From positions 1 to 64,000 of the forward strand of contig CANRCB010000001.1 of assembly GCA_947629015.1 (NCBI GenBank): DNA of 64,000 nucleotides. Direction: 5' to 3'. This stretch comes from an uncultured Gemmiger sp. (GTDB lineage: Bacteria; Bacillota; Clostridia; Oscillospirales; Ruminococcaceae). Both the position numbers and the translations under genes were made by a program. Position 1 is the first letter of the stretch, and each line of letters opens with the position of its first letter. Positions 6,085 to 58,359 of this stretch are shown one piece after another. The notes under the pieces were generated by a model, which was not told the DNA's origin, ran no database searches, and worked only from the letters and a program-made list of their open reading frames with translations.

Positions 6085-6711
6085 ATGGAACAAAACCAGC
6101 CAACCCCCGCCCAGCGCCGCGTCATCAGCCTGCTGGTCGAAAACCAGAACGGCGTTTTGGCCCGTGTGTCCAGCCTGTTCTGCCGCAAGGGCTTCAACAT
6201 CGACAGCCTCACCGTCTCCACCACGCGGGACCCCGCCGTCAGCCGCATCACCGTCACGCTGCGCGGCTCGCAGCGTGAGGTCGAGCAGCTGCTTTTGCAG
6301 ACCGAACGCCTGGAGGTCACCCGCCAGATCTTTGAGCTGCGGCCGGACAATTCCCTCCAGCGGGAGCTGCTGCTGCTGAAGGTTGAATGTGACGCAACCA
6401 ACCGCTCCCAGCTGTGGGAGCTGGCCAATATGTACAAGGCCAAGCTGCTGGATATGTCGCCCGACAGCATGGTCGTGGAGTTGACCGGCAAGCCGGAAAA
6501 GATCGATGCCTTCCTCACCATGTTCGAGGGGTACACCGTGCTGGAAATGTGCCGCACCGGCGTCACGGCGCTGGAGCGCGGCGGCCGCCACCCCCATATG
6601 CAAAAGCCCCCGCAGGAGGTGCGCGCCGTCCAGCTCAAGGATATCGAGCTCACGCGCCATCCCGCCAAAGGCGCGCCGGCCCGGCCGGCGGCGGACGAGG
6701 CGCAGCCCTGA
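6085..6711 (+). CDS. ilvN: Acetolactate synthase small subunit
   Basis: ACT-domain sequence VISLLVENQNGVLARVSSLFCRKGFNIDSLTVS; directly follows ilvB. Confidence 0.93.
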   Translation: MEQNQPTPAQRRVISLLVENQNGVLARVSSLFCRKGFNIDSLTVSTTRDPAVSRITVTLRGSQREVEQLLLQTERLEVTRQIFELRPDNSLQRELLLLKVECDATNRSQLWELANMYKAKLLDMSPDSMVVELTGKPEKIDAFLTMFEGYTVLEMCRTGVTALERGGRHPHMQKPPQEVRAVQLKDIELTRHPAKGAPARPAADEAQP

Positions 6712-7806
<1,095 letters not shown>

Positions 7807-7818
7807 ATGATGCAAAAA

Positions 7819-8015
7819 GGCTTCCCCCTCCGGGGGAAGCTGTCGCCGAAGGCGACTGATGAGGGGGAAGGGCGGCCGTTTGCGGGGGTGTTTCCCACCC
7901 TCACCCCTCATCCGGCCGCTTCGCGGCCACCTTCCCCCCTCCGGGGGGGAGGGCTGCTCCCGTCCCCTCATCCGTCTGCGCTTCGCGCAGACACCTTCCC
8001 CCGGAGGGGGAAGGC
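7819..8015. repeat. Composite palindromic repeat cluster between ilvC and ilvD
   Basis: Three units of CCTTCCCC...GGGGAAGG plus a variable GAAG/CTTC hairpin plus GATGAGGGG; one forward, two inverted. Confidence 0.85.
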
Positions 8016-8036
8016 AAATTGGAAGGAGTTTTTTCT

Positions 8037-9701
8037 ATGCGCAGCGACAACGTGACCAAAGGCCCCGAGCGCGCGCCCAACCGCAGCTTGTTCTACGCCC
8101 TCGGCTACACCAAAGAGGAGCTGGAGCGCCCGCTCATCGGCGTCGTGTCCGCCCACAGCGAGATCGTGCCCGGCCACATGGACCTGGACAAGCTCGCCGA
8201 GGCCGTCAAGGCCGGCGTGCGCATGGCGGGCGGCACGCCCATCCTCATCCCGGCCATCGGCGTGTGCGACGGCATCGCCATGGGCCACATCGGCATGAAA
8301 TATTCCCTCGCCAGCCGCGAGCTCATCTGTGACAGCGTCGAGACGATGGTCATGGCCCACCAGCTGGACGGCGTGGTGCTCGTGCCCAACTGTGACAAGA
8401 TCGTGCCCGGCATGGTCATGGCCGCCGTGCGCATGGATGTGCCGGCCGTGGTGTGCTCCGGCGGGCCGATGCTCGCCGGCACCTACGGCGGCGAGAGCGT
8501 CAGCCTTTCCAAAATGTTCGAGGCCGTCGGCGCCTACAAGGCCGGCCTCATCACCGACGAGCAGCTGGAGGACTGCACCTGCAACTGCTGCCCGGGCTGC
8601 GGCTCCTGCTCCGGTATGTACACCGCCAACAGCATGAACTGCCTGTGCGAGGCCATCGGCATCGCGCTGCCCGGCAACGGCACCATCCCGGCCGTCTACG
8701 CCAAGCGCCTGCAGCTGGGCAAGCAGTCCGGCATGGCCGTCATGGAGATGGTGCGCCGGGGCATCACCGCGCGCCGGATCATCAACGCGCGCAGCATCCG
8801 CAACGCCCTTACCTGCGATATGGCCCTGGGATGCTCCACCAACACCGTGCTGCACCTGCTGGCCATCGCGCACGAGGCGGGCGTGGATATTGATTTGAAA
8901 CTTTTCAACGAGATATCGGCCAAAACGCCCAACCTCTGCCACCTGGCCCCGGCCGGGCCCACCCATATGCCGGACCTGTACGCCGCCGGCGGCATCCCCG
9001 CCGTGCAGGCCGAGCTCGTCAAAAAGGGCCTGCTCGACCTCGACGTGCCCACCGTCACCGGCAAGACCCTGGGCGAGAACCTTGCCGAGCTCAAGCCCGT
9101 CAACAAAAACCCCAACGCCATCCGCCCCATCTCGGACCCCTACAGCGCCACCGGCGGTTTGCAGATCCTTTGGGGCAACATCGCGCCGGACGGCTGCGTC
9201 GTCAAGCGCAGCGCCGTCGCGCCCGAGATGCAGCGCCATGCCGGCCCCGCCCGCGTCTTTGACAGCGAGGAGGCCGCCATCGACGCCATCTACAACGGCC
9301 GCATCGTGGACGGCGACGTCGTCGTCATCCGGTACGAGGGGCCCAAGGGCGGCCCCGGTATGCGCGAGATGCTCAACCCGACGAGCGCCCTCGCCGGCAT
9401 GAACCTGGACAAGACCGTCGCCCTCATCACCGACGGCCGCTTCTCCGGCGCCTCGCGCGGGGCGGCCATCGGCCACGTCTCCCCGGAGGCCGCCGCCGGC
9501 GGGCCCATCGGCCTCATCGAAGAAGGGGACACCATCGAGATCGACATCCCCGCGGCCTCCATCCGCCTGGCCGTCAGCGATGAAGAGCTTGCCCGCCGCA
9601 AGGCCGCCTACACGCCGCCGGAGCCCAACATCAAAACCGGCTGGCTGGCGCGCTACGCCCGCATGGTCACCAGCGCCAACCTCGGCGCCGTGGTGCAGTG
9701 A
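8037..9701 (+). CDS. ilvD: Dihydroxy-acid dehydratase
   Basis: [28 protein letters not shown]..., [18 protein letters not shown] motif. Confidence 0.96.
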
Positions 9702-9718
9702 GCCTGCCGTTTGCCCCT

Positions 9719-9756
9719 CGCCGCCCGGCGCCCTTTGGCGCCGGGCGGCGCTTTGT
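9719..9756 (+). terminator. Intrinsic terminator of the ilv cluster
   Basis: cgccgcccggcgcc-cttt-ggcgccgggcggcg perfect hairpin followed by ctttgtg. Confidence 0.7.
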
Positions 9757-9764
9757 GCTCCAGG

Positions 9765-9794
9765 TTGACAGGGGTCTGCCCTGCACGCTATAAT
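9765..9794 (+). promoter_or_regulatory. Promoter for the G9-tract gene
   Basis: TTGACA (9765-9770), 18-nt spacer, TATAAT (9789-9794); AGGAGG RBS before ATG 9845. Confidence 0.7.
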
Positions 9795-9844
9795 CAAAAA
9801 AACGGGCCTGCCCGCCACGCTGCGGGTAAGGACAGGAGGAAATT

Positions 9845-11066
9845 ATGACAGAATATCTGCTTTCGGACGAAAAAATCCTCTGGGGGGGGGTTAAGATGGC
9901 AACAGCTGACGGAGGAAAGGCTGCGGGACGAAAAATGCCTTGAACGGTACGGCTACAAGGTCTATTCCCAAAACGACGAGGACGGCATCCTGCAGGAGAT
10001 CTTCCGCCGCATCGGCACGACCAACCGCTTTTTTATCGAGTTTGGCGTCCAGGACGGGCTGGAGAGCAACGGCCACTACCTGCTGCACCTTGGGTGGCAG
10101 GGCTACTGGATGGAAGGCAGCGCGGAATATGTGGAACAGATCCGCCGCAAGTTCCATCCGGTGTTGGCTGCCGGCCAGCTGCGCTGCAAGCAGGCGTTCA
10201 TCACCCGCGAAAACATCAACGCCCTCCTGCGTGAGGCCGGGCCCCCGCGCCGGCCGGATCTGCTCAGCATCGACATCGACGGCAACGACTACTATGTCTG
10301 GCAGGCGGTCACCGAGGTGGACGCGCGGGTCGTCGTGATAGAGTATAACGGCAAATTCCCGCCCGACTGTGACTGGAAGATGGCCTATGACCCCAACCAC
10401 ATCTGGGACGGGTCGGACTGGCACGGCGCCTCGCTCAAAGCGTTGGAGCTGCTGGGCGCGCAACGGGGCTACCAGCTGGTCGGCACCAACCTTTCCGGTG
10501 CCAATGCGTTTTTTGTCAAAAAGGAGCTGGCAGGGGAGCTGTTCTGCCAACCCGCGACTGCACAGGCCCTGTACAACCCCCTGCGCCTGGGGCTTAAACA
10601 CCGCAACGGCCATCCGGCGCGCTACTGCCTGCGCGGCCAGGCGGAGGGCCTTGGTGTGCTGAACTACGCCCCGGGGGTGAAGGCTGTCCCGGGTTACGGG
10701 TTCCATGAGATCGAGCGGGACGGCACAAAGGAACACTGCTGGACTGCGGCGCCGGAAAGCCGGCTGACGGTCCGCCGCAGCCCCGGGGATACCTGCCTGC
10801 GGCTGCCCTGCACGGTGCCGCAATGCGTTTTGGAGCGCTGCGGCGGGCGATACCCGGTGCGGGTAGCGGCCGGGCAGGCGCCGGCGGCCGAATATTTTGT
10901 CACGGAAAACAGCGTGCTGGAGATCCCGCTCCCTCCCGTAGAGGAGGCGTGCGTCTGCCTGACCCTCAGCGCGCCCTGCCTGTGGAGCCCGGCGGAGGTT
11001 TCCGGCTCCGCCGACACGCGCCGCCTGGGCGTTTCGGTCTGCCTGAGCGGCATCACCACCGGCTGA
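9845..11066 (+). pseudogene. FkbM-like (SAM-dependent) methyltransferase, frame interrupted at a G9 homopolymer; phase-OFF allele or frameshifted
   Basis: ATG 9845 frame stops soon after G9 (9882-9890); removing one G joins it to the 10110..11066 frame (...IEFGVQDGLESNGHYLLHLGWQGYWMEGSAEYV...LLSIDIDGNDYYVWQAV...), ~406 aa. Confidence 0.75.
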
Positions 11067-11178
11067 CAATACGGCATACCGGGGAAAACGATACCTTACA
11101 GGGCGGCACCCGCACCGGGGCTTTACGCATCCGGCGCGGGTGCCTGTGCATTGGCCGGCCTTTGCCCTGCGGCCCCAC

Positions 11179-11207
11179 TTGATTTTGCGGTGCGGAAATG
11201 CTACAAT
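11179..11207 (+). promoter_or_regulatory. Putative promoter for the M16 peptidase operon
   Basis: TTGATT-17 nt-TACAAT. Confidence 0.5.
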
Positions 11208-11276
11208 ACATTTTAGCTTTTTGCCTGCATTCCGCCGCTTTTGGCGCCATCCAGTTCAAGAAAGGACCCTGCCGTT

Positions 11277-12554
11277 TTGGAACGCACACAACTGGCCCCC
11301 GGCGTGTTTTTGACCACGCTCCCGGCCGATAAATTCAAGCGCTGCCGCATCGCCATCCATCTGCGCTTCCCGGCGCTGCGCGCCGCCGCCACCGATACCG
11401 CCGTGCTGCCGCTGGTGCTGGAGCGCGGCTATGCCGCCTGCCCGGATATGACGCGCCTGTCCCGCCGGCTGGCGGAGCTTTACGGCGCCGACCTCGGCGT
11501 GGACCTCTCGGCCGCCGGGGTGGACCGCGTGCTCTCGGCCGATATCTGCGGAATCAAGGATGAGTACGCCCTCGCGGGTGAAAACCTGACCGAGGCGTAT
11601 GCCGGCATCGTGTTCGGCGTCGTGTTCGAACCGTACCTCGTGGACGGCGTGTTCGACGCCGAGGCCGTGCGCATCGAGAAGGAGACCCTGGCCCGCCGCC
11701 TGCAGGCCGAATACAACAACAAGCGCCTGTACTGCGTGCGGCAGGCGCGCCGCAAATTTTACGGCCACGGCCCCGCCGCCATCGAGCTGGGCGGCTATCG
11801 CAAGGACCTGCCCGCCGTCACGCCGCAGACGCTCAAGGCCGAGTATGACCGCATCCTGCAAAGCGCCTTCATCGACGTCGTGGTGCAGGGGGCCGATGCC
11901 GCGCGCGTGGGGCAGATGCTGCTGCGCCGCCTCGAAAACATCCCCCGCGCGCCGCAGCCCTTCACCCCGCCGCTGGCCATGCCCCGGCAGGATGCCGCGC
12001 ACTACGCCGAGGCCATCCCCGGCCTGACACAGGCCAAGCTGTGCCTGCTGTTCACCACCGGCACGCCCGACCCGCTGCCCGATATCCATCTTCTGCGCCT
12101 GGCCATGGGCGTGTACGGCGGCAGCCCCACCAGCCGGCTGTTCCGCAACGTGCGGGAAAAACAGTCCCTTTGTTACTACTGCGCGGCGGCCGCGCAGCTG
12201 GCCACCGGCGCCATGATCGTGGATTCCGGCGTGGAGCCGGGCGGCGAGGCGCGCGCCGAGGAGGCCATCCTGCAAGAGCTGCGTGACCTGCAAGCCGCCC
12301 CGCCCGCCGCCGATGAGCTGGAGGATGCCCGCCGCGCCCTGCTTTCCGGCATGGACGCCGCGTCGGACAGCCTGGGCGCGCTCGAAAGCTGGTACTACGG
12401 CCAGATCCTGCGCGGGGAGGAGCCCGTCGCCCCCGCCCGCGCGCAGGAATTGACCCGGGCCGTCACTGCCGAACAGGTGCGCGAGGTACTGGCCCGCTAC
12501 AGCTTCTCGGTCTCGTATGCCGTCACGGCGGGAAAGGACAACGCCCATGGATAA
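11277..12554 (+). CDS. M16-family peptidase-like protein (YfmF-like), probable TTG start
   Basis: ERTQLAPGVFLTTLPADKFKRCRIAIHLRFPL...; paired with a second M16 gene. Confidence 0.82.
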   Translation: MERTQLAPGVFLTTLPADKFKRCRIAIHLRFPALRAAATDTAVLPLVLERGYAACPDMTRLSRRLAELYGADLGVDLSAAGVDRVLSADICGIKDEYALAGENLTEAYAGIVFGVVFEPYLVDGVFDAEAVRIEKETLARRLQAEYNNKRLYCVRQARRKFYGHGPAAIELGGYRKDLPAVTPQTLKAEYDRILQSAFIDVVVQGADAARVGQMLLRRLENIPRAPQPFTPPLAMPRQDAAHYAEAIPGLTQAKLCLLFTTGTPDPLPDIHLLRLAMGVYGGSPTSRLFRNVREKQSLCYYCAAAAQLATGAMIVDSGVEPGGEARAEEAILQELRDLQAAPPAADELEDARRALLSGMDAASDSLGALESWYYGQILRGEEPVAPARAQELTRAVTAEQVREVLARYSFSVSYAVTAGKDNAHG

Positions 12555-22151: not shown

Positions 22152-23903
22152 ATGAAAAAGTTTCCCGTGTACATCCTCTGTACGGCCCTGGCCCTGTCTC
22201 TGGCCGCCTGCGGCGGCCAGGCCGCGGCGGGGCAGGGCAGTGCCCCGGCCGAAAGCACCGCCGTGTCCGAACCGGCCGCGGCGCCCGCCGACACCGATAC
22301 AAAGGCCGACACCGGCACCGCCCCCGGGCCGGCCGCCGCCCCAAGCAGGCAGACGGACGGCAATTTTCAGGCGGCCATTGAGGAAACGGTCCTTGTGGAT
22401 GAGAAGGACGTGAAGATCACCGCCACCGAACTGCGCTATACCAGTTACAGCGTCGAGCTGGCGCTTGCGTTTGAAAACAATTCCGGCAAAGACCTGTCAT
22501 TCCGCAGCAGCACGATCGCCTGCAGCCGCAACTCCGTCAACGGCTACATGGTGGACGGGCTGTACGTCAATGTGGATGTCCCGGCGGGCAAAAAGGCCAA
22601 CGATACCGCAAGCATCGGCAAAAATGACCTGCTGCTCTACGGCATCACCGACATCGCCGATATCGAGATGGCTTTTGCCATCGAGGACGACAACTACGAT
22701 GATTACCTGCTGACCGAGCCGGCCCGCGTCACGACCGCGCTGGCCGAAAGTTATGACTACGAGGCGGATCCCTACCAGGCGGCGATGCGCGACGGCGCGC
22801 TCGTGGCGTCCCTCGGCGGTGCGGTGGAGCATTTCGCCGCGGACGAATTGTACGACGCGCAGGGCGTGCGCATCGTTTCGGAGGCGTTCATCACCAATGC
22901 GGACGGGGAGCCGGTCGTCTTTGTGGAGTTCGAGAACACCTCGGACCGGCTGGTGACGGTAACGACAAATGATGTCGCCCTCAACGGCCTGCTGGTGCAA
23001 AACGGCACCTGGAGTTACGATACCCTCAACGCCGGCACGCGGCGGGTGGTCGCCCTGCAGCCGGATACCGCGCTGGACCGCGCGTATTGGGAGCCCTATG
23101 GCCTTGACACTGTGGGCGAGATCGCCTTCAGCCTCGTTTTGAAGGATGCCGACGGCAACGAACTGTGCGACGCCGCGCCCGTCACACTCACGCTTCCCGG
23201 CGCCGAAGCCGCCTGCCGCAGCGACGGTGACCCCGTGTACAGCGGCGGCGGTGTGCGCATCCTGCATATGGGCACCGTGCCGGACTCCTATGACGCAAGC
23301 GATGACCTTCACCTGCTCCTGCTGGCGGAGAACGGCACCGAAGGGACGGTACGGTTCGACATCGGCTACGACACGCTCTCGGTGAACGGCTGCATGACCG
23401 ATTTCAGCAGCCCCCGGCGGACGGTCGCGCCCGGCGGGAGCGGCGTGCTGGATGTGGAGCTGCAGGGCGATTCTCTGGCGGAAAACGGCATCACGGCGGC
23501 GGAGGATATCCAAACGGTCGAGTTTACGGTGGAGCTCAAGGGCGAGCGCAACCGTGACATCGCCTCGTTCACGGTGGTCATCGGCGAAAACGGCCAGCCG
23601 GCACAGGAAGCGGCCGGCGGCACGGATGCCGCGGCCGCCCCCGGCGTCAGCCCGGATTTCAAAGAAGTGATGGACGGCTACGAAGCGTTTTTTGACGAGT
23701 ATGCCGCCTTCATGAAAAAATACCAAAGCTCCGACAACGCCGCGGGCATGATGATGGATTACCTCTCCTTTATGACCCGGTACACCGAGACGATGCAGAA
23801 ACTCGACGAGCTTGATACCGATTCCCTCTCCGCGGCCGACATGGCGTATTACACGCAGGTGACGGCCCGCATCACGGCCAAATTGGCGGAGGCAGCTGGC
23901 TGA
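22152..23903 (+). CDS. Hypothetical lipoprotein
   Basis: Lipobox MKKFPVYILCTALALSLAACGG; no recognised catalytic domain. Confidence 0.75.
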   Translation: MKKFPVYILCTALALSLAACGGQAAAGQGSAPAESTAVSEPAAAPADTDTKADTGTAPGPAAAPSRQTDGNFQAAIEETVLVDEKDVKITATELRYTSYSVELALAFENNSGKDLSFRSSTIACSRNSVNGYMVDGLYVNVDVPAGKKANDTASIGKNDLLLYGITDIADIEMAFAIEDDNYDDYLLTEPARVTTALAESYDYEADPYQAAMRDGALVASLGGAVEHFAADELYDAQGVRIVSEAFITNADGEPVVFVEFENTSDRLVTVTTNDVALNGLLVQNGTWSYDTLNAGTRRVVALQPDTALDRAYWEPYGLDTVGEIAFSLVLKDADGNELCDAAPVTLTLPGAEAACRSDGDPVYSGGGVRILHMGTVPDSYDASDDLHLLLLAENGTEGTVRFDIGYDTLSVNGCMTDFSSPRRTVAPGGSGVLDVELQGDSLAENGITAAEDIQTVEFTVELKGERNRDIASFTVVIGENGQPAQEAAGGTDAAAAPGVSPDFKEVMDGYEAFFDEYAAFMKKYQSSDNAAGMMMDYLSFMTRYTETMQKLDELDTDSLSAADMAYYTQVTARITAKLAEAAG

Positions 23904-23948: not shown

Positions 23949-23988
23949 CAGAAAAGGCGTTGATTCGTAAAAATCAACGCCTTTTCTG
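23949..23988 (-). terminator. Hairpin/terminator directly beside the tRNA-Tyr 3'-end remnant
   Basis: cagaaaaggcgttgatt / aatcaacgccttttctg 17-bp perfect arms. Confidence 0.6.
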
Positions 23989-24019
23989 GTGGGAGCTGGT
24001 GGTACGCCGAGCCGCGGGC
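23987..24019. repeat. Putative att-like direct repeat (left), contains 16 nt of tRNA-Tyr 3' end
   Basis: tggtgggagctggtggtacgccgagccgcgggc; 30/33 identical to 29418-29450. Confidence 0.7.
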
Positions 24020-24182
24020 AAACAAAGAGGAAAACGTTGCTTATTAAAAAAGAGGCTTTATTTCGTTATCAATATATTGCTCATATGGGTCAACGTGGCT
24101 CCCTTCGGGCCGATCTTCAGTATCACAGCAATTGCGGTATTGTATTTATTAGGAGTTTCCCGCACTGTATAGGCCTCCGGGT

Positions 24183-24917
24183 CTAATCGCCAGAATTAAA
24201 GGCAACGAGTTTTTCCCAATCGATACTTCCGTCAGCAAAACAGAACTCCTGCGTAAATTCCCTTACCAAACGGTTGGCCGCTTTCTGGTAAGAAGTGTTG
24301 AATTCTTCTACATACTTTTCCGGAAGTTTATCCATGTAACGGATCAATTTTATATAAAATTCTTCATCGCCGGTCAATTCTGTCCAGAAATCTTTCCCGG
24401 CCAGTTCCAGGTAGAACTTTGGCATACCCTTATTTGAGGGCTTTTTCTTCCCGTATCCATAACCGACGATGGGGACAAAACGTTTCCGGGCCTGCTGTGC
24501 CAGTTTGCCCGCGGCCATGAAGTTCTGCTCCTGCTTTTTACGGCTGTCGGCATTGAAAACGCTTGTGCCAGACTTGACGGCAATAGCATAAATAGTGCTA
24601 TCGCGCTCCACCATGATGTCTACGCCTTCGGCAAGCGCTTTCTGACCGTGCGCAGCAGCAGTGGCGATCGGCTCAAAAAACACATTGCCAAATATCGTTT
24701 CTTCAGAGGAAGAAACAAACGCGGCAAGGATGGCCTCTACGATTTGGGAGGCCCCGTTCATTGCTTTGGCCCTGAAAAGGTACGGGTTTTTACGCCGCAT
24801 GACTTGCTTGATATTCAGCTTGTCGATCTTTTTGATCAAGTTGGTGTAAAATCGATCCAGCGCATCCGCAATTGCTTCTACAATGGCTTGCCCGTCATAA
24901 GTTTCATTTATTGGCAT
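24183..24917 (-). CDS. PmeII-family-like type II restriction endonuclease
   Basis: MPINETYDGQAIVEAIADALDRFYTNLIKKIDKLNIKQVMRRKNPYLFRAK...SSSEETIFGN; EGVDIMVERDSTIYAIAVKSG PD-(D/E)XK-like; overlaps the MTase 3' end. Confidence 0.75.
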   Translation of the reverse strand: MPINETYDGQAIVEAIADALDRFYTNLIKKIDKLNIKQVMRRKNPYLFRAKAMNGASQIVEAILAAFVSSSEETIFGNVFFEPIATAAAHGQKALAEGVDIMVERDSTIYAIAVKSGTSVFNADSRKKQEQNFMAAGKLAQQARKRFVPIVGYGYGKKKPSNKGMPKFYLELAGKDFWTELTGDEEFYIKLIRYMDKLPEKYVEEFNTSYQKAANRLVREFTQEFCFADGSIDWEKLVAFNSGD

Positions 24918-26100
24918 AATGGTTCCCTCCGATCTCAATTGCATCCCGTAGCTTTTGATGGACGACTGTCCCTCGGAAACGTTTGGTCTGTATGGCTGCA
25001 GACTGGTCTGCCACGGCAAGGACGGCTTCACCGATGGCCTGCGCAAGCCCAACAGGTACAGCGTTACCGATCTGCCGGTACTTTGCGGCAGTCGTGCCAA
25101 TAAAATGCCAATCTTCCGGAAACTGCTGGATACGTGCATATTCTTTTATGCTCAACGGCCGATCCTGCCTTGGGTGGCACATCATGGTAGCCTTTTGGAC
25201 GGGCGAAGTCACTAGAGTGGGGGAGGGCTGGCTGTATGACAACCTGCGGTAAAATCCTACTTTGCCGCCGCCGGAACCATAGGCACCGCCCATCGCTTCT
25301 TTCTGCATTTCCGGCGGAAGGTCTTTCCAGTTGCCACCCTCCGGCACAAGCCGTAAATACTCAAGCCGGTCTTTGCTGAAGGCCATGCACTCACCACAGT
25401 CTGCCTCCAGATCCGAAATGCTGTCCCGCAAGGTACACCAACGGTATGCAGGGTCTTGATGCATCTGGAAATGGGTGGGGATTGGCAGGAAAATATCCTC
25501 GTGGTCGCGGCTGCCGATCAGGACAAACCGTTCACGGAATTGGGGCACACCATAGTTGGCGGCATCCAAAAGCCCATATACAGTTTTGTATCCAAGTTTG
25601 TCAAACTCTGAAAGGATAACGTCCAAGACCGTGCCAAGGCGCTGGTTTGGATCGGTTTCGTCCCTCTCTGCCAGCGGGACATACTTGAGCGGGGCCGACA
25701 TGATCCCCTTGACGTTTTCCATAATGAAGAACCGCGGGCGGATGGTATCGATCATCCGGATAAAATCCATAAAAAGGCTGCCGCGGGGATCGTTGATACC
25801 AAGACGTTTCCCAGCCGTCGAAAATGGTTGGCAAGGCGGCCCCCCGCAAATCAGAAACGGTTCCCCAAAATCCATCCCGCTGGCATCCAACAAATCTGAC
25901 GGCTCAAGTGTGCGGATATCCCCGCCGAGCACATTATGGCCATTGGCGCGCATGGTGGCAACGCAGGCAGCATCAAAATCCTGCCCAACGGCGATCCGCA
26001 GCCCGGCCATTGCCAAACCAATGTCCAGGCCCATGGCCCCGGAAAACAAGGAAACAACAGCCCGGTTGCGGGAATCATCCCTATACTTCAAGAGTTGCAT
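24904..26100 (-). CDS. DNA (cytosine-5-)-methyltransferase
   Basis: VVSLFSGAMGLDIGLAMAG, GGPPCQPFSTAGKR, FIMENVKG motifs. Confidence 0.95.
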   Translation of the reverse strand: MQLLKYRDDSRNRAVVSLFSGAMGLDIGLAMAGLRIAVGQDFDAACVATMRANGHNVLGGDIRTLEPSDLLDASGMDFGEPFLICGGPPCQPFSTAGKRLGINDPRGSLFMDFIRMIDTIRPRFFIMENVKGIMSAPLKYVPLAERDETDPNQRLGTVLDVILSEFDKLGYKTVYGLLDAANYGVPQFRERFVLIGSRDHEDIFLPIPTHFQMHQDPAYRWCTLRDSISDLEADCGECMAFSKDRLEYLRLVPEGGNWKDLPPEMQKEAMGGAYGSGGGKVGFYRRLSYSQPSPTLVTSPVQKATMMCHPRQDRPLSIKEYARIQQFPEDWHFIGTTAAKYRQIGNAVPVGLAQAIGEAVLAVADQSAAIQTKRFRGTVVHQKLRDAIEIGGNHYANK

Positions 26101-26110
26101 TTTGCCCTCC

Positions 26111-26320
26111 TTAAACCTTGTCCCCATTCGGGAGGATAAAATACCGCTCAAAAGTACAGCCTGCAGCAGCTGCCAGATATTCAAGGTCGGCCACAGTAAA
26201 ACTCTCCCGCTTGAGTTTGGCACTGAAGTTTTGCGGCGTTGTCCCCATGCGCCTGGCCAATTCTGCCGAGCTAATATTAGAACGGATGCAAAGGATTTTT
26301 ATCTGCTCGCTGATCGTCAT
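26111..26320 (-). CDS. XRE-like HTH protein, candidate R-M controller
   Basis: MTISEQIKILCIRSNISSAELARRMGTTPQNFSAKLKRESFTVADLEYLAAAAGCTFERYFIL; 10 bp upstream of MTase. Confidence 0.8.
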   Translation of the reverse strand: MTISEQIKILCIRSNISSAELARRMGTTPQNFSAKLKRESFTVADLEYLAAAAGCTFERYFILPNGDKV

Positions 26321-26385
26321 TGCAATTCCCCACAAAAATAAAGCGATAAATATAATTTATAAAATAATAAATTTAAATTATAAAA

Positions 26386-26844
26386 TTAGTCCCTATTTTC
26401 TTCCATTATATCATCGAATGTCTGTAACTGCAACTCAAAAATCAAATCTTCGATGGCGCCAATACACTCAGGGAGACGTTTTGTGATTTCTTGGCCCCAA
26501 AAATGCATGGGTATCCAATCCAAGGCGAGAAGGGCAAAATCGTTTTCCCGGTCACGTGTCATGTTGCGCTCGATTTTTTTGATCCAATAATCACGGTTTT
26601 CACCCAGCCGCAGTTTCTTTATCTCCCAATTGTATCCGTGGAAGAACTCACTATCGCAAAAAATAGCAATTTTGTATTTGGTGAGGGCTATATCCGGTGT
26701 ACCTGGCAGGGCTTTATAGTTTTTCCGGTACCGATACCCTTTGTGCCACAGGGCCTTCCGTAAAGCAACTTCTATGCTGGTATCTTTCCCCTTGATATGG
26801 CCCATCGTGCGGCTACGCTGGGCAGGGGACATCATATCACCCAT
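26386..26844 (-). CDS. vsr: Very short patch repair endonuclease
   Basis: MSPAQRSRTMGHIKGKDTSIEVALRKALWHKGYRYRKNYKALPGTPDIALTKYKIAIFCDSEFFHG. Confidence 0.95.
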   Translation of the reverse strand: MGDMMSPAQRSRTMGHIKGKDTSIEVALRKALWHKGYRYRKNYKALPGTPDIALTKYKIAIFCDSEFFHGYNWEIKKLRLGENRDYWIKKIERNMTRDRENDFALLALDWIPMHFWGQEITKRLPECIGAIEDLIFELQLQTFDDIMEENRD

Positions 26845-26962
26845 ATTACCCCTGCTTACTATGGTGGTGTATCCTCAAATATAGCACAATAAAGCGAATG
26901 GCTAAAGTGATACATCACATTTGATGCTATCCCGGTACCATCGTGCAAAATTAATGAAAAAT

Positions 26963-28459
26963 TTATTCAAAGATAGAAGTTATCTTGAAAAACAATTCTG
27001 GTGCTGACACAACGATAAGGGCGATCTTTTCACGTACACGAGTGATACCTTGGTAAAATAGATTTGGATACAGATAATTTGGATTGGGATGCCGGATCCC
27101 CCGCAGCTTGTTATATTCATCATAGTAAAAAGAATCATCCAACAGCATCAAAACCTTATCAAATTCCTGTCCGATTACATGATGTGTATCATAATCTTCC
27201 TTATATGCCGAAAAAGGGCTGGGGTAAAAATTCGATTTTGAGTAATTAATAAAAACGTATTCTTGCTGCCGATAATATTCAATCAGCCGACAAGCCTCAT
27301 CGAAGTTGGCAGCATATAACAAAGAAACATTATCATAAGACATAGAAGTGGCGGGCTTCAAATTCAAATCTATTACTTGGGCAATAAATGAGGCTAATGC
27401 TTTATTCGTACGGATCTTCCCGGTTAGTGTGTATTTTTCAAGTAAGGGCAATGCTAATATTTTGCCAACGATATCATTTTGCTTTTCTGATGATGAGAGC
27501 ACTTGATCAGGATCAGAAGAAAAAATACAGATTTTTTTGCCTTCATTAACTTTGTCGCAAAGGCTACGGAACTGCGCCAAATGGAAACGATGTGCTTCGT
27601 CCACAAGGATATATTGATAAGTGTCAATAATTTCTGGACGCCCTTTAAGTCGGCCGGCCTCAATAATCGCAAAGTTATTGATGGCTTTTTCTAACTGCTG
27701 GTAGGTTTCAGGTAATTTGCCGCAATGAATAATAGCGGTTGGCATCCATTGGGAAAGCTGCCGTGCCAAATCATATACCAACAAGGTCTTGCCGGTACCA
27801 GGTTTTCCAATGATACTATAAAAGCCATCCTGTCCTTGAATATATATATCATTAAGGATCTTCTTTTTGATTTCATCTTGCGCCTGTGTTAAAAAGTATT
27901 TTTCATCAATAAATTTTTCCGGCGTATTCAGTGGCGAAACCAAAAAATCTGATGCTCGAAACATAGTATCAATTTGTGACAGATGGTCGTATTCGAACTG
28001 TTTTATAGCATCTGCTACGCAGGAAAAGGCAATTGACTGCAGATGGCCATCCTCTGTCAATTTGTAACAAGTCAGGGGACTCGTTACCACAGTATACAAA
28101 TGCAGTTTCTTACCTATATGCGCAAGATAGTGCTTGTTCTTTTGTAATTGCGATAAAATGTCGCTGGTGGAAACGGGTTGACTTTTGAGCTCAATATTTA
28201 GGCAGTCATGTTCCGTAAACTTAAGTAAATCGAATTCTTTCCCGATTTGAGGGATTTTATACCCAAAATAGAATCCATCCAGTTGGTTTATTGATATACC
28301 ATTTTCCAACAAGCCATCGACCAAGAGGCGCAGCGATAGAATCTCATGTGTCTGTGTATGTTTGCACTCGTCGCTGCCGGAAGCGTGCTTTTCAACTCGA
28401 TGAAAAGCAGTTTCATCTGTTATCCGAGATAAAGCGTAAAGGTTTACAGGTCTCGTCAT
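26963..28459 (-). CDS. PD-(D/E)XK-like N-terminal domain fused to DUF2075-like SF1 helicase/ATPase
   Basis: KEFDLLKFTEHDCLNIELKSQ; Walker A IIGKPGTGKTLLVYDLA; YILVDEAHRF; C-terminal ...LFYQGITRVREKIALIV. Confidence 0.8.
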   Translation of the reverse strand: MTRPVNLYALSRITDETAFHRVEKHASGSDECKHTQTHEILSLRLLVDGLLENGISINQLDGFYFGYKIPQIGKEFDLLKFTEHDCLNIELKSQPVSTSDILSQLQKNKHYLAHIGKKLHLYTVVTSPLTCYKLTEDGHLQSIAFSCVADAIKQFEYDHLSQIDTMFRASDFLVSPLNTPEKFIDEKYFLTQAQDEIKKKILNDIYIQGQDGFYSIIGKPGTGKTLLVYDLARQLSQWMPTAIIHCGKLPETYQQLEKAINNFAIIEAGRLKGRPEIIDTYQYILVDEAHRFHLAQFRSLCDKVNEGKKICIFSSDPDQVLSSSEKQNDIVGKILALPLLEKYTLTGKIRTNKALASFIAQVIDLNLKPATSMSYDNVSLLYAANFDEACRLIEYYRQQEYVFINYSKSNFYPSPFSAYKEDYDTHHVIGQEFDKVLMLLDDSFYYDEYNKLRGIRHPNPNYLYPNLFYQGITRVREKIALIVVSAPELFFKITSIFE

Positions 28460-28579
28460 CTGCGAAGTTCCTCCAAAGATTATAGTTTATAAATTGCGAT
28501 TATATTTTCTATATTAAAATCCACCGCACAGTTGGTGGCAGAGGTGCAGTGAAAAGCAGAGTTATACAATATTCTCGCT

Positions 28580-29164
28580 TTATTTGATCTGCTCCTCGAA
28601 AAACGCCACCAGATGATCCATAATACCCTGCGCTGCGTGTATCGTCGCCATCATCAGCAAATCGGTATCGGCTTGCGAAAAGTCCAGCTCATAGTCAAAG
28701 GACCGCAGCCAATGCTGAAAGAAAACACGCTGTGTGCGGCCATTGCCTTCGCGGAACGGGTGCAGCAGATTGATGGTGTTATAAAAATCTGCCACGGCCA
28801 CCGCGCGCTCATGAACGGAAAGAGTCCGCAGGTCGGTGCTGACCAATCGGTCAAAACACACGTTGGCAACGCGCTTAATCTGCGCGGCGGGCATAAATAC
28901 TGTGCCGCGTTTGCTCAAGTCGATATCGCGCACCTGCCCGGCCCAAGCGTACAGGTCGCAAAAGAGATATTGATGGATGCCCTTGTAGAAGGCAAAATCG
29001 AAAGGCCCCGACAAAGGCTTGTGGAACAGCTCGCTGGTTTTGCCCAGCGTGAGCGCAGCCTCTGTCGCGGCCAGGATGTTTTCATCATGGATGTCCAGCA
29101 GGTTTACAAGGCAGGTCGTGCCGGGGTAGCAGTCCTGCCCGGTTGCTTCCATATCATACGCCAT
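28580..29164 (-). CDS. fic: Fic/DOC-family toxin (AMP-transferase-like)
   Basis: Canonical Fic motif HPFREGNGRTQR. Confidence 0.95.
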   Translation of the reverse strand: MAYDMEATGQDCYPGTTCLVNLLDIHDENILAATEAALTLGKTSELFHKPLSGPFDFAFYKGIHQYLFCDLYAWAGQVRDIDLSKRGTVFMPAAQIKRVANVCFDRLVSTDLRTLSVHERAVAVADFYNTINLLHPFREGNGRTQRVFFQHWLRSFDYELDFSQADTDLLMMATIHAAQGIMDHLVAFFEEQIK

Positions 29165-29165
29165 A

Positions 29166-29333
29166 TCAACTGCCCTTTCGCTCGATGGCCAGCGCCACGT
29201 ACTCGCTCATGGTGATCTCGCCGCGCAGAAGCCGGCGGCAAAGTTCTTCATAGACAGGCTTGGCCGTCAGCCCCTCCATACGGAGCGACGCGACCGCGTT
29301 GGCGATGGATTTTTCCACAGACATCGGCGCCAT
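29166..29333 (-). CDS. VbhA-like antitoxin of the Fic pair
   Basis: MAPMSVEKSIANAVASLRMEGLTAKPVYEELCRRLLRGEIT; SLRMEG matches the class I Fic inhibitory motif (S/T)xxxE(G/N); 1 nt from fic. Confidence 0.85.
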   Translation of the reverse strand: MAPMSVEKSIANAVASLRMEGLTAKPVYEELCRRLLRGEITMSEYVALAIERKGS

Positions 29334-29417
29334 GCAAGTGCCCTCCTGTTTGATGCTACAACCAGTATACGGCATTTTTGGCTTTTATACAATATAAAGT
29401 TTCGGATTATTTGTTGT

Positions 29418-29450
29418 TGGTGGGAGCTGATGGTGCGCCGAGCCGTGGGC
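29418..29450. repeat. Putative att-like direct repeat (right)
   Basis: tggtgggagctgatggtgcgccgagccgtgggc; 30/33 identical to 23987-24019. Confidence 0.7.
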
Positions 29451-29483
29451 CGCCCTGTTCGAGCCCTGCCAGTACCGGCACCA

Positions 29484-29522
29484 AAAACGACCGCCCTGCC
29501 GGGGTACGGCAGGGCGGTCGCT
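29484..29522 (-). terminator. tRNA-Tyr intrinsic terminator
   Basis: On minus strand: cgaccgccctgccgtaccccggcagggcggtcg followed by tttttgg. Confidence 0.75.
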
Positions 29523-29524
29523 TT

Positions 29525-29610
29525 TGGTGGGAGCTGGTGGATTCGAACCACCGAAGCATTACGCAGCAGATTTACAGTCTGTCCCCATTGGCCACTCGGG
29601 AAAGCTCCCA
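29525..29610 (-). tRNA. tRNA-Tyr (anticodon GTA), CCA encoded
   Basis: tgggagctttcccgagtggccaatggggacagactgtaaatctgctgcgtaatgcttcggtggttcgaatccaccagctcccacca; cloverleaf with long variable arm. Confidence 0.95.
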
Positions 29611-44780: not shown

Positions 44781-44942
44781 CAGACTGTCGAAAAAAGAGC
44801 AGCAAATGCTTTTTGGAGTGCTTGTAGGGGACGGCCTCCGGACGTCCCGCAAACTTTCCGTCGTTGCAACGTTTACGGGGCGTCGAGGACGCCGCCCCCT
44901 ACAGCTTGCCTTGGAATCGCAGTTAACTTTTTTGACACACTG
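44781..44942. mobile_element. MITE-like element copy 1 (162 bp)
   Basis: Ends cagactgtcgaaaaa ... ttttttgacacactg form an imperfect TIR; ~100 bp core shared with 58109-58359. Confidence 0.65.
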
Positions 44943-58108: not shown

Positions 58109-58359
58109 GAGACTGTCGAAAAAGGGGCATCAAATGCTTTTTGGAGCGCTTGTAGGGGACGGCCTCCGGACGTCCCGCAACTTTTCCGCTGTTGCAACGT
58201 TTACGGGGCGTCGAGGACGCCGAGGGGCAGCGAGGCGTTTCGGAGCGCAAGCTCCGGGCTTCGCACCGGAGCCAAGCGCCCGAAGGGCGGCTCTTGGCGC
58301 GGAGATCGCCGCCCCCTACGATTTGCCATATAATTGCAACCGACTCTTTTAACACACTG
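58109..58359. mobile_element. MITE-like element copy 2 (with ~90 bp extra internal sequence)
   Basis: gagactgtcgaaaaa...ttttaacacactg ends; core aaatgctttttggagcgcttgtaggggacggcctccggacgtcccgcaa...ttgcaacgtttacggggcgtcgaggacgccg shared with 44781-44942. Confidence 0.65.

Follow-up and report, generated by a model that had tools for sequence, protein, structure and literature searches.

Islands integrated beside tRNA genes, such as the P4-like islands and the IMEs, carry foreign cargo next to a tRNA, are bounded by a direct repeat containing the tRNA 3' end and have island-free relatives. Repeats that carry a tRNA 3' end are also known downstream of a tRNA gene, as in the rtT of E. coli tyrT, where they follow tRNA-Tyr in tandem. 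The window analysed here (the whole stretch of 64,000 nucleotides, part of contig C1 of an assembly of 2.21 Mb in 75 contigs) holds a block of 5.4 kb which recalls the first of these systems, while its landing place recalls the second. The explanation that we favour, with moderate confidence, is that an integrase-less defence cassette was inserted in the tRNA-like arm of a structured element (here called TLE) behind tRNA-Tyr, that 33 bp were duplicated in the process and that the cassette is now stranded.

The tRNA-Tyr(GTA) gene (29525..29609, minus strand) is intact and is the sole copy found in the assembly. The 16 nt of its 3' tail, TGGTGGGAGCTGGTGG, occur exactly at 23987 and 29525 and with one mismatch at 29418, the same result on recheck as in an earlier note on this DNA, and in a shuffle control four matches to this tail were never reached. 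The copies at 23987 and 29418 extend into an imperfect direct repeat (23987-24019 and 29418-29450), with the length of 33 bp and the 30 of 33 identities that the note had given, which brackets the 5.4-kb block. The window holds two direct repeats of 33-mers with at least 30 of 33 identities and a spacing of 0.5-15 kb, namely this pair and one unrelated pair. A 27-nt core pattern of the repeat, searched with up to three mismatches, was found genome-wide at the 23987 and 29418 sites alone. The repeat is therefore not common in the genome (had it been common, this would have spoken against the earlier reading), and a further genome copy of the 33-mer is ruled out; chance origin is ruled out by the shuffles, the genome-wide core search and the repeat count in the window. 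The three mismatches between the two copies imply that the event is old, or that attP differed from attB. Elsewhere in the window, an intergenic repeat of ~116 bp, near or fully identical at 44782-44897 and 58110-58225, 13.3 kb apart, is possibly a small non-coding mobile repeat.

The 33-bp repeats sit within the arm of a TLE, outside the tRNA. A TLE is a structured unit of ~108 bp composed of a direct copy of the tRNA tail, a conserved two-hairpin core and an inverted tail copy, with a terminator and the tRNA beyond. In the window the right repeat (29418..29450, plus strand) is the left arm of such a unit, and next to it lies the right arm (29451..29482, plus strand), an inverted tRNA-tail copy, the inner hairpins being absent. 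A terminator (29487..29524, minus strand, -36.0 kcal/mol) stands between the TLE and tRNA-Tyr. The left repeat (23987..24019, plus strand) joins the 16-nt tail copy to 17 nt of TLE left arm, and a hairpin terminator abuts it (23955..23986, minus strand, fold of -23.6 kcal/mol). Since these outer 17 nt, past the match to the tRNA, are TLE sequence absent from the tRNA, the proposal of the earlier note that the bracketing repeats are a displaced tRNA-Tyr 3' end was not borne out. The terminator that it had reported beside the left copy is indeed there, but not as a mark of displacement, because TLE units normally have a terminator together with a tail copy. The island is placed within the TLE of tRNA-Tyr, the tRNA itself being left intact, and its right breakpoint corresponds in position exactly to the 3' terminus of the tRNA. 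A classical P4-like island would have attL in tRNA-Tyr and attR at 23987, the copy at 29418 being incidental. Such an origin accounts for the exact 16-nt tail copy adjoining a terminator at 23987, but the 17 nt of TLE common to both inner copies and missing from the tRNA make it very improbable, as does an allele which keeps its TLE in place without any island.

This allele was found in another species of the same genus (G018, contig C182). In the window the left chromosomal neighbour of the island is a DUF6591 lipoprotein-like gene (22152..23903, plus strand), whose homologue, 63% identical, adjoins the island-free TLE in G018. The order there is lipoprotein homologue, terminator, a short TLE (TLE#1) again lacking the inner hairpins, a second terminator homologous to that at 29487..29524, and a further TLE at the contig end. 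When the flanks of the window were joined with one copy of the repeat they were collinear with G018 over a stretch that begins at the lipoprotein gene and takes in the repeat and terminator, and the joined flanks scored 222 in the alignment, against 103 and 158 for the single flanks. The window TLE and TLE#1 also have their short form, right arm and terminator in common. Together with the collinearity, this speaks for an insertion into the left arm that duplicated 33 bp. The empty allele is incomplete, since the G018 contig ends inside the second TLE before any tRNA-Tyr. The earlier suggestion of integration at tRNA-Tyr, for which empty sites in relatives were to be sought, thus holds as regards a foreign block, repeats at its edges and an island-free allele; the bracket, however, consists of two copies of the TLE left arm. 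A comparison of the zinc-ribbon gene and tRNA-Tyr for conserved synteny led nowhere, the two being apart in most relatives.

Between the repeats there are seven genes, all on the minus strand, which appear intact from the motifs read in their translations. The gene at 24183..24917 encodes a type II restriction endonuclease of the EcoO109I family (244 aa; PF14511, E=1.8e-60), whose match to the solved EcoO109I structure 1wtd is weak (E=1.3e-4). It adjoins a C5-cytosine DNA methyltransferase (24904..26100, start taken at MQLLKYR; PF00145, E=2.1e-66) in which the motifs PPCQPFS, ENV and QFRERF are readable. Next to the latter lies a Cro/CI-type HTH protein (26111..26320, start taken at MTISEQ; PF13443), a possible controller of the restriction-modification (RM) genes, with a homologue 65% identical that also adjoins the methyltransferase gene in G346. 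These are accompanied by a Vsr mismatch endonuclease (26386..26844; PF03852, TIGR00632 above cut-off) and by a Nhi/AbiO-like nuclease-helicase (26963..28459; PADLOC Nhi 1.8e-138, AbiO 2.9e-138), for which the family match is full-length and the helicase motifs GKPGTGKT and VDEAH can be read. The last two genes encode a VbhT-like Fic AMP-transferase of 194 aa (28580..29164; PF02661; 8wt0 5e-34, VbhT structures ~1e-24), with an intact Fic motif HPFREGNGRTQR that agrees with HPFx(D/E)GNGRxxR, and a VbhA-type antitoxin (29166..29375; PF18495, E=2.5e-8), whose inhibitory motif S-x-x-x-E-G is present as SLRMEG and fits (S/T)xxxE(G/N). Between the left repeat and the endonuclease gene (24040-24190) there is a short minus-strand remnant (NTAIAVILKIGPKGATLTHMSNILITK) with no family match. 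The seven genes are most likely separate anti-phage and toxin-antitoxin modules, and an anti-phage activity may be attributed to them on the basis of family membership; nothing suggests that all seven form one system.

The GC content of the island (38-55%) is well below that of the flanks (62-72%), and so is the GC3 of its genes (0.39-0.73 against 0.82-0.88). Composition, strand and family matches thus agree with the AT-richer, all-minus block and the gene families of the earlier note, and windowed GC and codon usage, which it had put forward as a check, also differed by module. Since GC is 0.39 in Nhi, 0.46-0.55 in the RM genes and 0.55-0.59 in Fic-VbhA, the block is composite. Two genomes of the order (G346 and G129) have the RM core without Nhi or Fic, and MT838227.1, an unverified faecal scaffold, has it next to Hachiman-like genes (HamA/HamB-like, names given by sequence reading alone). 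This scaffold (L346), labelled as a phage, has a close RM-Vsr module adjoining the Hachiman genes and is probably a defence island, not a phage. Relatives of Nhi were 39-41% identical among the 150 related genomes examined, and those on plasmids less than 60% identical. The island itself is ordinary, a further instance of known defence modules assembled as a mosaic next to a tRNA.

No integrase is present in the element, as the earlier note had stated. The family search found no recombinase family among the island proteins, and no PF00589 integrase was found on contig C1, the scan for serine recombinases being confined to the island. A second copy of the island element was not found, scans of the genome contigs for the 33-mer and for Nhi led nowhere, and among the viral contigs of IMG/VR the junction patterns were absent and the TLE-Tyr patterns led nowhere. 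From the repeats and the G018 allele we infer that the cassette (type II RM with Vsr, Nhi/AbiO helicase and Fic-VbhA) would have entered the TLE behind tRNA-Tyr, and that recombination at the tail copy of the TLE would have duplicated the 33-bp arm and spared the real tRNA. The enzyme was probably either a recombinase supplied in trans or, through a crossover at the TLE arm, RecA, and the cassette, without an integrase of its own, is probably now stranded. Homologous recombination by RecA between TLE copies could by itself explain the repeats as common TLE sequence, with no site-specific recombinase involved, and TLEs are indeed multi-copy in the genome, some of them adjoining integrated elements. 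We regard this as unlikely, because a donor TLE with this arm was not found elsewhere in the genome and because 33 bp is short for a RecA crossover.

Other loci bear on a further explanation, which we hold to be possible, although less probable than insertion into the TLE arm. An element would have entered the tRNA-Tyr tail beside an existing TLE and would later have lost, by deletion, the end with its recombinase together with most of the distal TLE, so that the cargo was left stranded with a TLE remnant of 33 bp on one side and a second TLE on the other. Integration at such tails does occur. In G004 there is an element of 4.57 kb at tRNA-Tyr, with a tyrosine-integrase-like ORF, that is bounded by a tail copy. 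Where a TLE has no intact tRNA, there is in several cases a terminator and then part of a tRNA tail that gives way to foreign sequence, an attR-like scar, and in others the end of a large serine recombinase abuts the TLE, as is expected from integration into a tail beside an existing TLE. Such loci and the G004 element indicate that these tRNAs are true integration targets, and that TLEs exist without islands. Tandems of TLEs are also known, and in G017 (contig C57, L258 ~6100-11500) a ~5-kb block with a two-component system and an ABC transporter lies between two TLEs with a mere trace of the recombinase end, just ~30 nt resembling that of a serine recombinase. Against a decayed element stands the TLE remainder at 29418-29482, which with its terminator looks orthologous to the chromosomal TLE#1 of G018, with the same lipoprotein neighbour, and not imported. 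Moreover, it would take a coincidence for such a decay to place the breakpoint exactly at the tRNA 3'-terminus position. No other TLE in the tRNA and TLE loci examined had cargo between two arm copies as here, and the idea that islands recur in TLEs as an array of cassettes was rejected for lack of a second case. In G031 (contig C17; L295, L296) two TLEs 26 kb apart are each followed by a partial tRNA tail of ~43 nt, with tyrosine integrases nearby, and these are apparently tandem integrated elements each carrying a TLE.

When the tRNA-Tyr loci were compared across the genus, G006 and G011 had a tail copy ~145-150 bp from tRNA-Tyr and no island. The repeat arm of the window matches the TLEs beside tRNA-Tyr in these two genomes, the one beside the lipoprotein homologue in G018 and others adjoining tRNA-Tyr in different genera and families. 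A search with the TLE unit found relatives throughout the genus (L094, L115, L150-L173, L239-L318), in which it is chiefly the core that matches, their arms being similar to other tRNAs. In a covariance model built from 13 copies, 10 of the 20 predicted pairs had compensatory changes, both sides having changed with pairing kept. This model matched 34 of the 35 genomes of the genus, 17 of 120 genomes of the family sample at a looser cut-off (some in the inner hairpin alone) and 7 of 291 genomes of the class sample at E<=1e-6, figures which outside the genus are a lower bound, since the model was built from hits of the first search. The best class-level matches outside the family again adjoin tRNA-Tyr, with matching arms. 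Four loci with TLEs or arm copies (L094, L115, L119, L002) matched no Rfam family in a cmscan at E<=1, RtT included, which rules out a known RNA family for the loci scanned. No TLE was found in plasmids, and those found in phages come from three unannotated faecal scaffolds. A search of the open-access literature returned no paper on tRNA-tail repeats, which is weak evidence of novelty.

Of the TLEs in the loci retrieved, 54 are found downstream of a tRNA, always in the same orientation and 39-83 nt from its 3' end. The tRNAs that TLEs adjoin are those for Tyr, Glu, Gly, Met, Arg, Leu, Val, Pro, Ser and Lys. The left arm matches the tail of its own tRNA (13.2) far better than tails for other amino acids (5.1), and the inverted right arm behaves likewise (13.3 against 6.0), the own tRNA being the best match for 46 of the 54 left arms and 48 of the 54 right arms. 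The arms even follow local variants of 1-4 nt among tails for the same amino acid (left arm 37 wins, 4 ties and 3 losses; right arm 28, 10 and 6), counts which treat related sequences as independent and so describe a strong pattern, not a probability. TLEs often stand in tandem, ~140-150 bp apart, most have no neighbouring island, and many assemblies break at them. In the window's own genome (L332 341-1250, L339, L340; tRNA-Glu and tRNA-Leu) the TLEs exceed the usual length and bear an additional insertion in their second hairpin; behind tRNA-Glu they are tandem. A tyrosine integrase lies nearby on C21 (1551-2066). The window has a MerR-like gene upstream of its lipoprotein gene; a homologue of that gene in G011 (L115), at 280-620 bp from the tRNA, is cut short and runs into a TLE fragment, as if a deletion had ended inside a TLE.

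What is surprising here is the TLE family and the landing place, rather than the island. We very tentatively suggest that TLEs are an undescribed structured class placed after tRNA genes, whose direct and inverted copies of the 3' tail are continually renewed from their own tRNA or evolve along with it, and that they may act as surrogate integration sites of which the window island would be an example. If so, mobile DNA could settle next to essential tRNA genes and leave them undisturbed. Should TLEs draw integration off the tRNA genes, this would be a new form of coexistence between chromosome and mobile DNA, and would explain integrase-less islands found by intact tRNAs. That both arms evolve in concert with the tail of their own tRNA, in several families of one class, calls for a mechanism, for which gene conversion, slippage or selection on an RNA or single-strand structure are candidates.

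Compared with P4-like islands and IMEs, the window island has the same foreign cargo by a tRNA and an island-free relative, but it has no integrase. Its direct repeat holds a copy of the tRNA 3' end, yet lies in a downstream element that mimics the tRNA, and not in the tRNA, and has an outer 17 nt of non-tRNA sequence. As in EcoO109I, an RM system that recognises RGGNCCY, an endonuclease of that family adjoins a C5 methyltransferase and an HTH protein; the island differs in having Vsr and in the weak match to the solved enzyme given above. The putative nuclease-helicase resembles Nhi of Staphylococcus epidermidis and AbiO of Lactococcus over its full length in PADLOC. The Fic protein has the intact HPFREGNGR and the upstream VbhA-type antitoxin of VbhT/VbhA, whereas it consists of the Fic domain alone. 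Finally, TLEs are like the rtT in being repeats downstream of tRNA-Tyr with its 3' end, and unlike it in that their tails are two and inverted, their inner core is conserved and many different tRNAs serve as partners.
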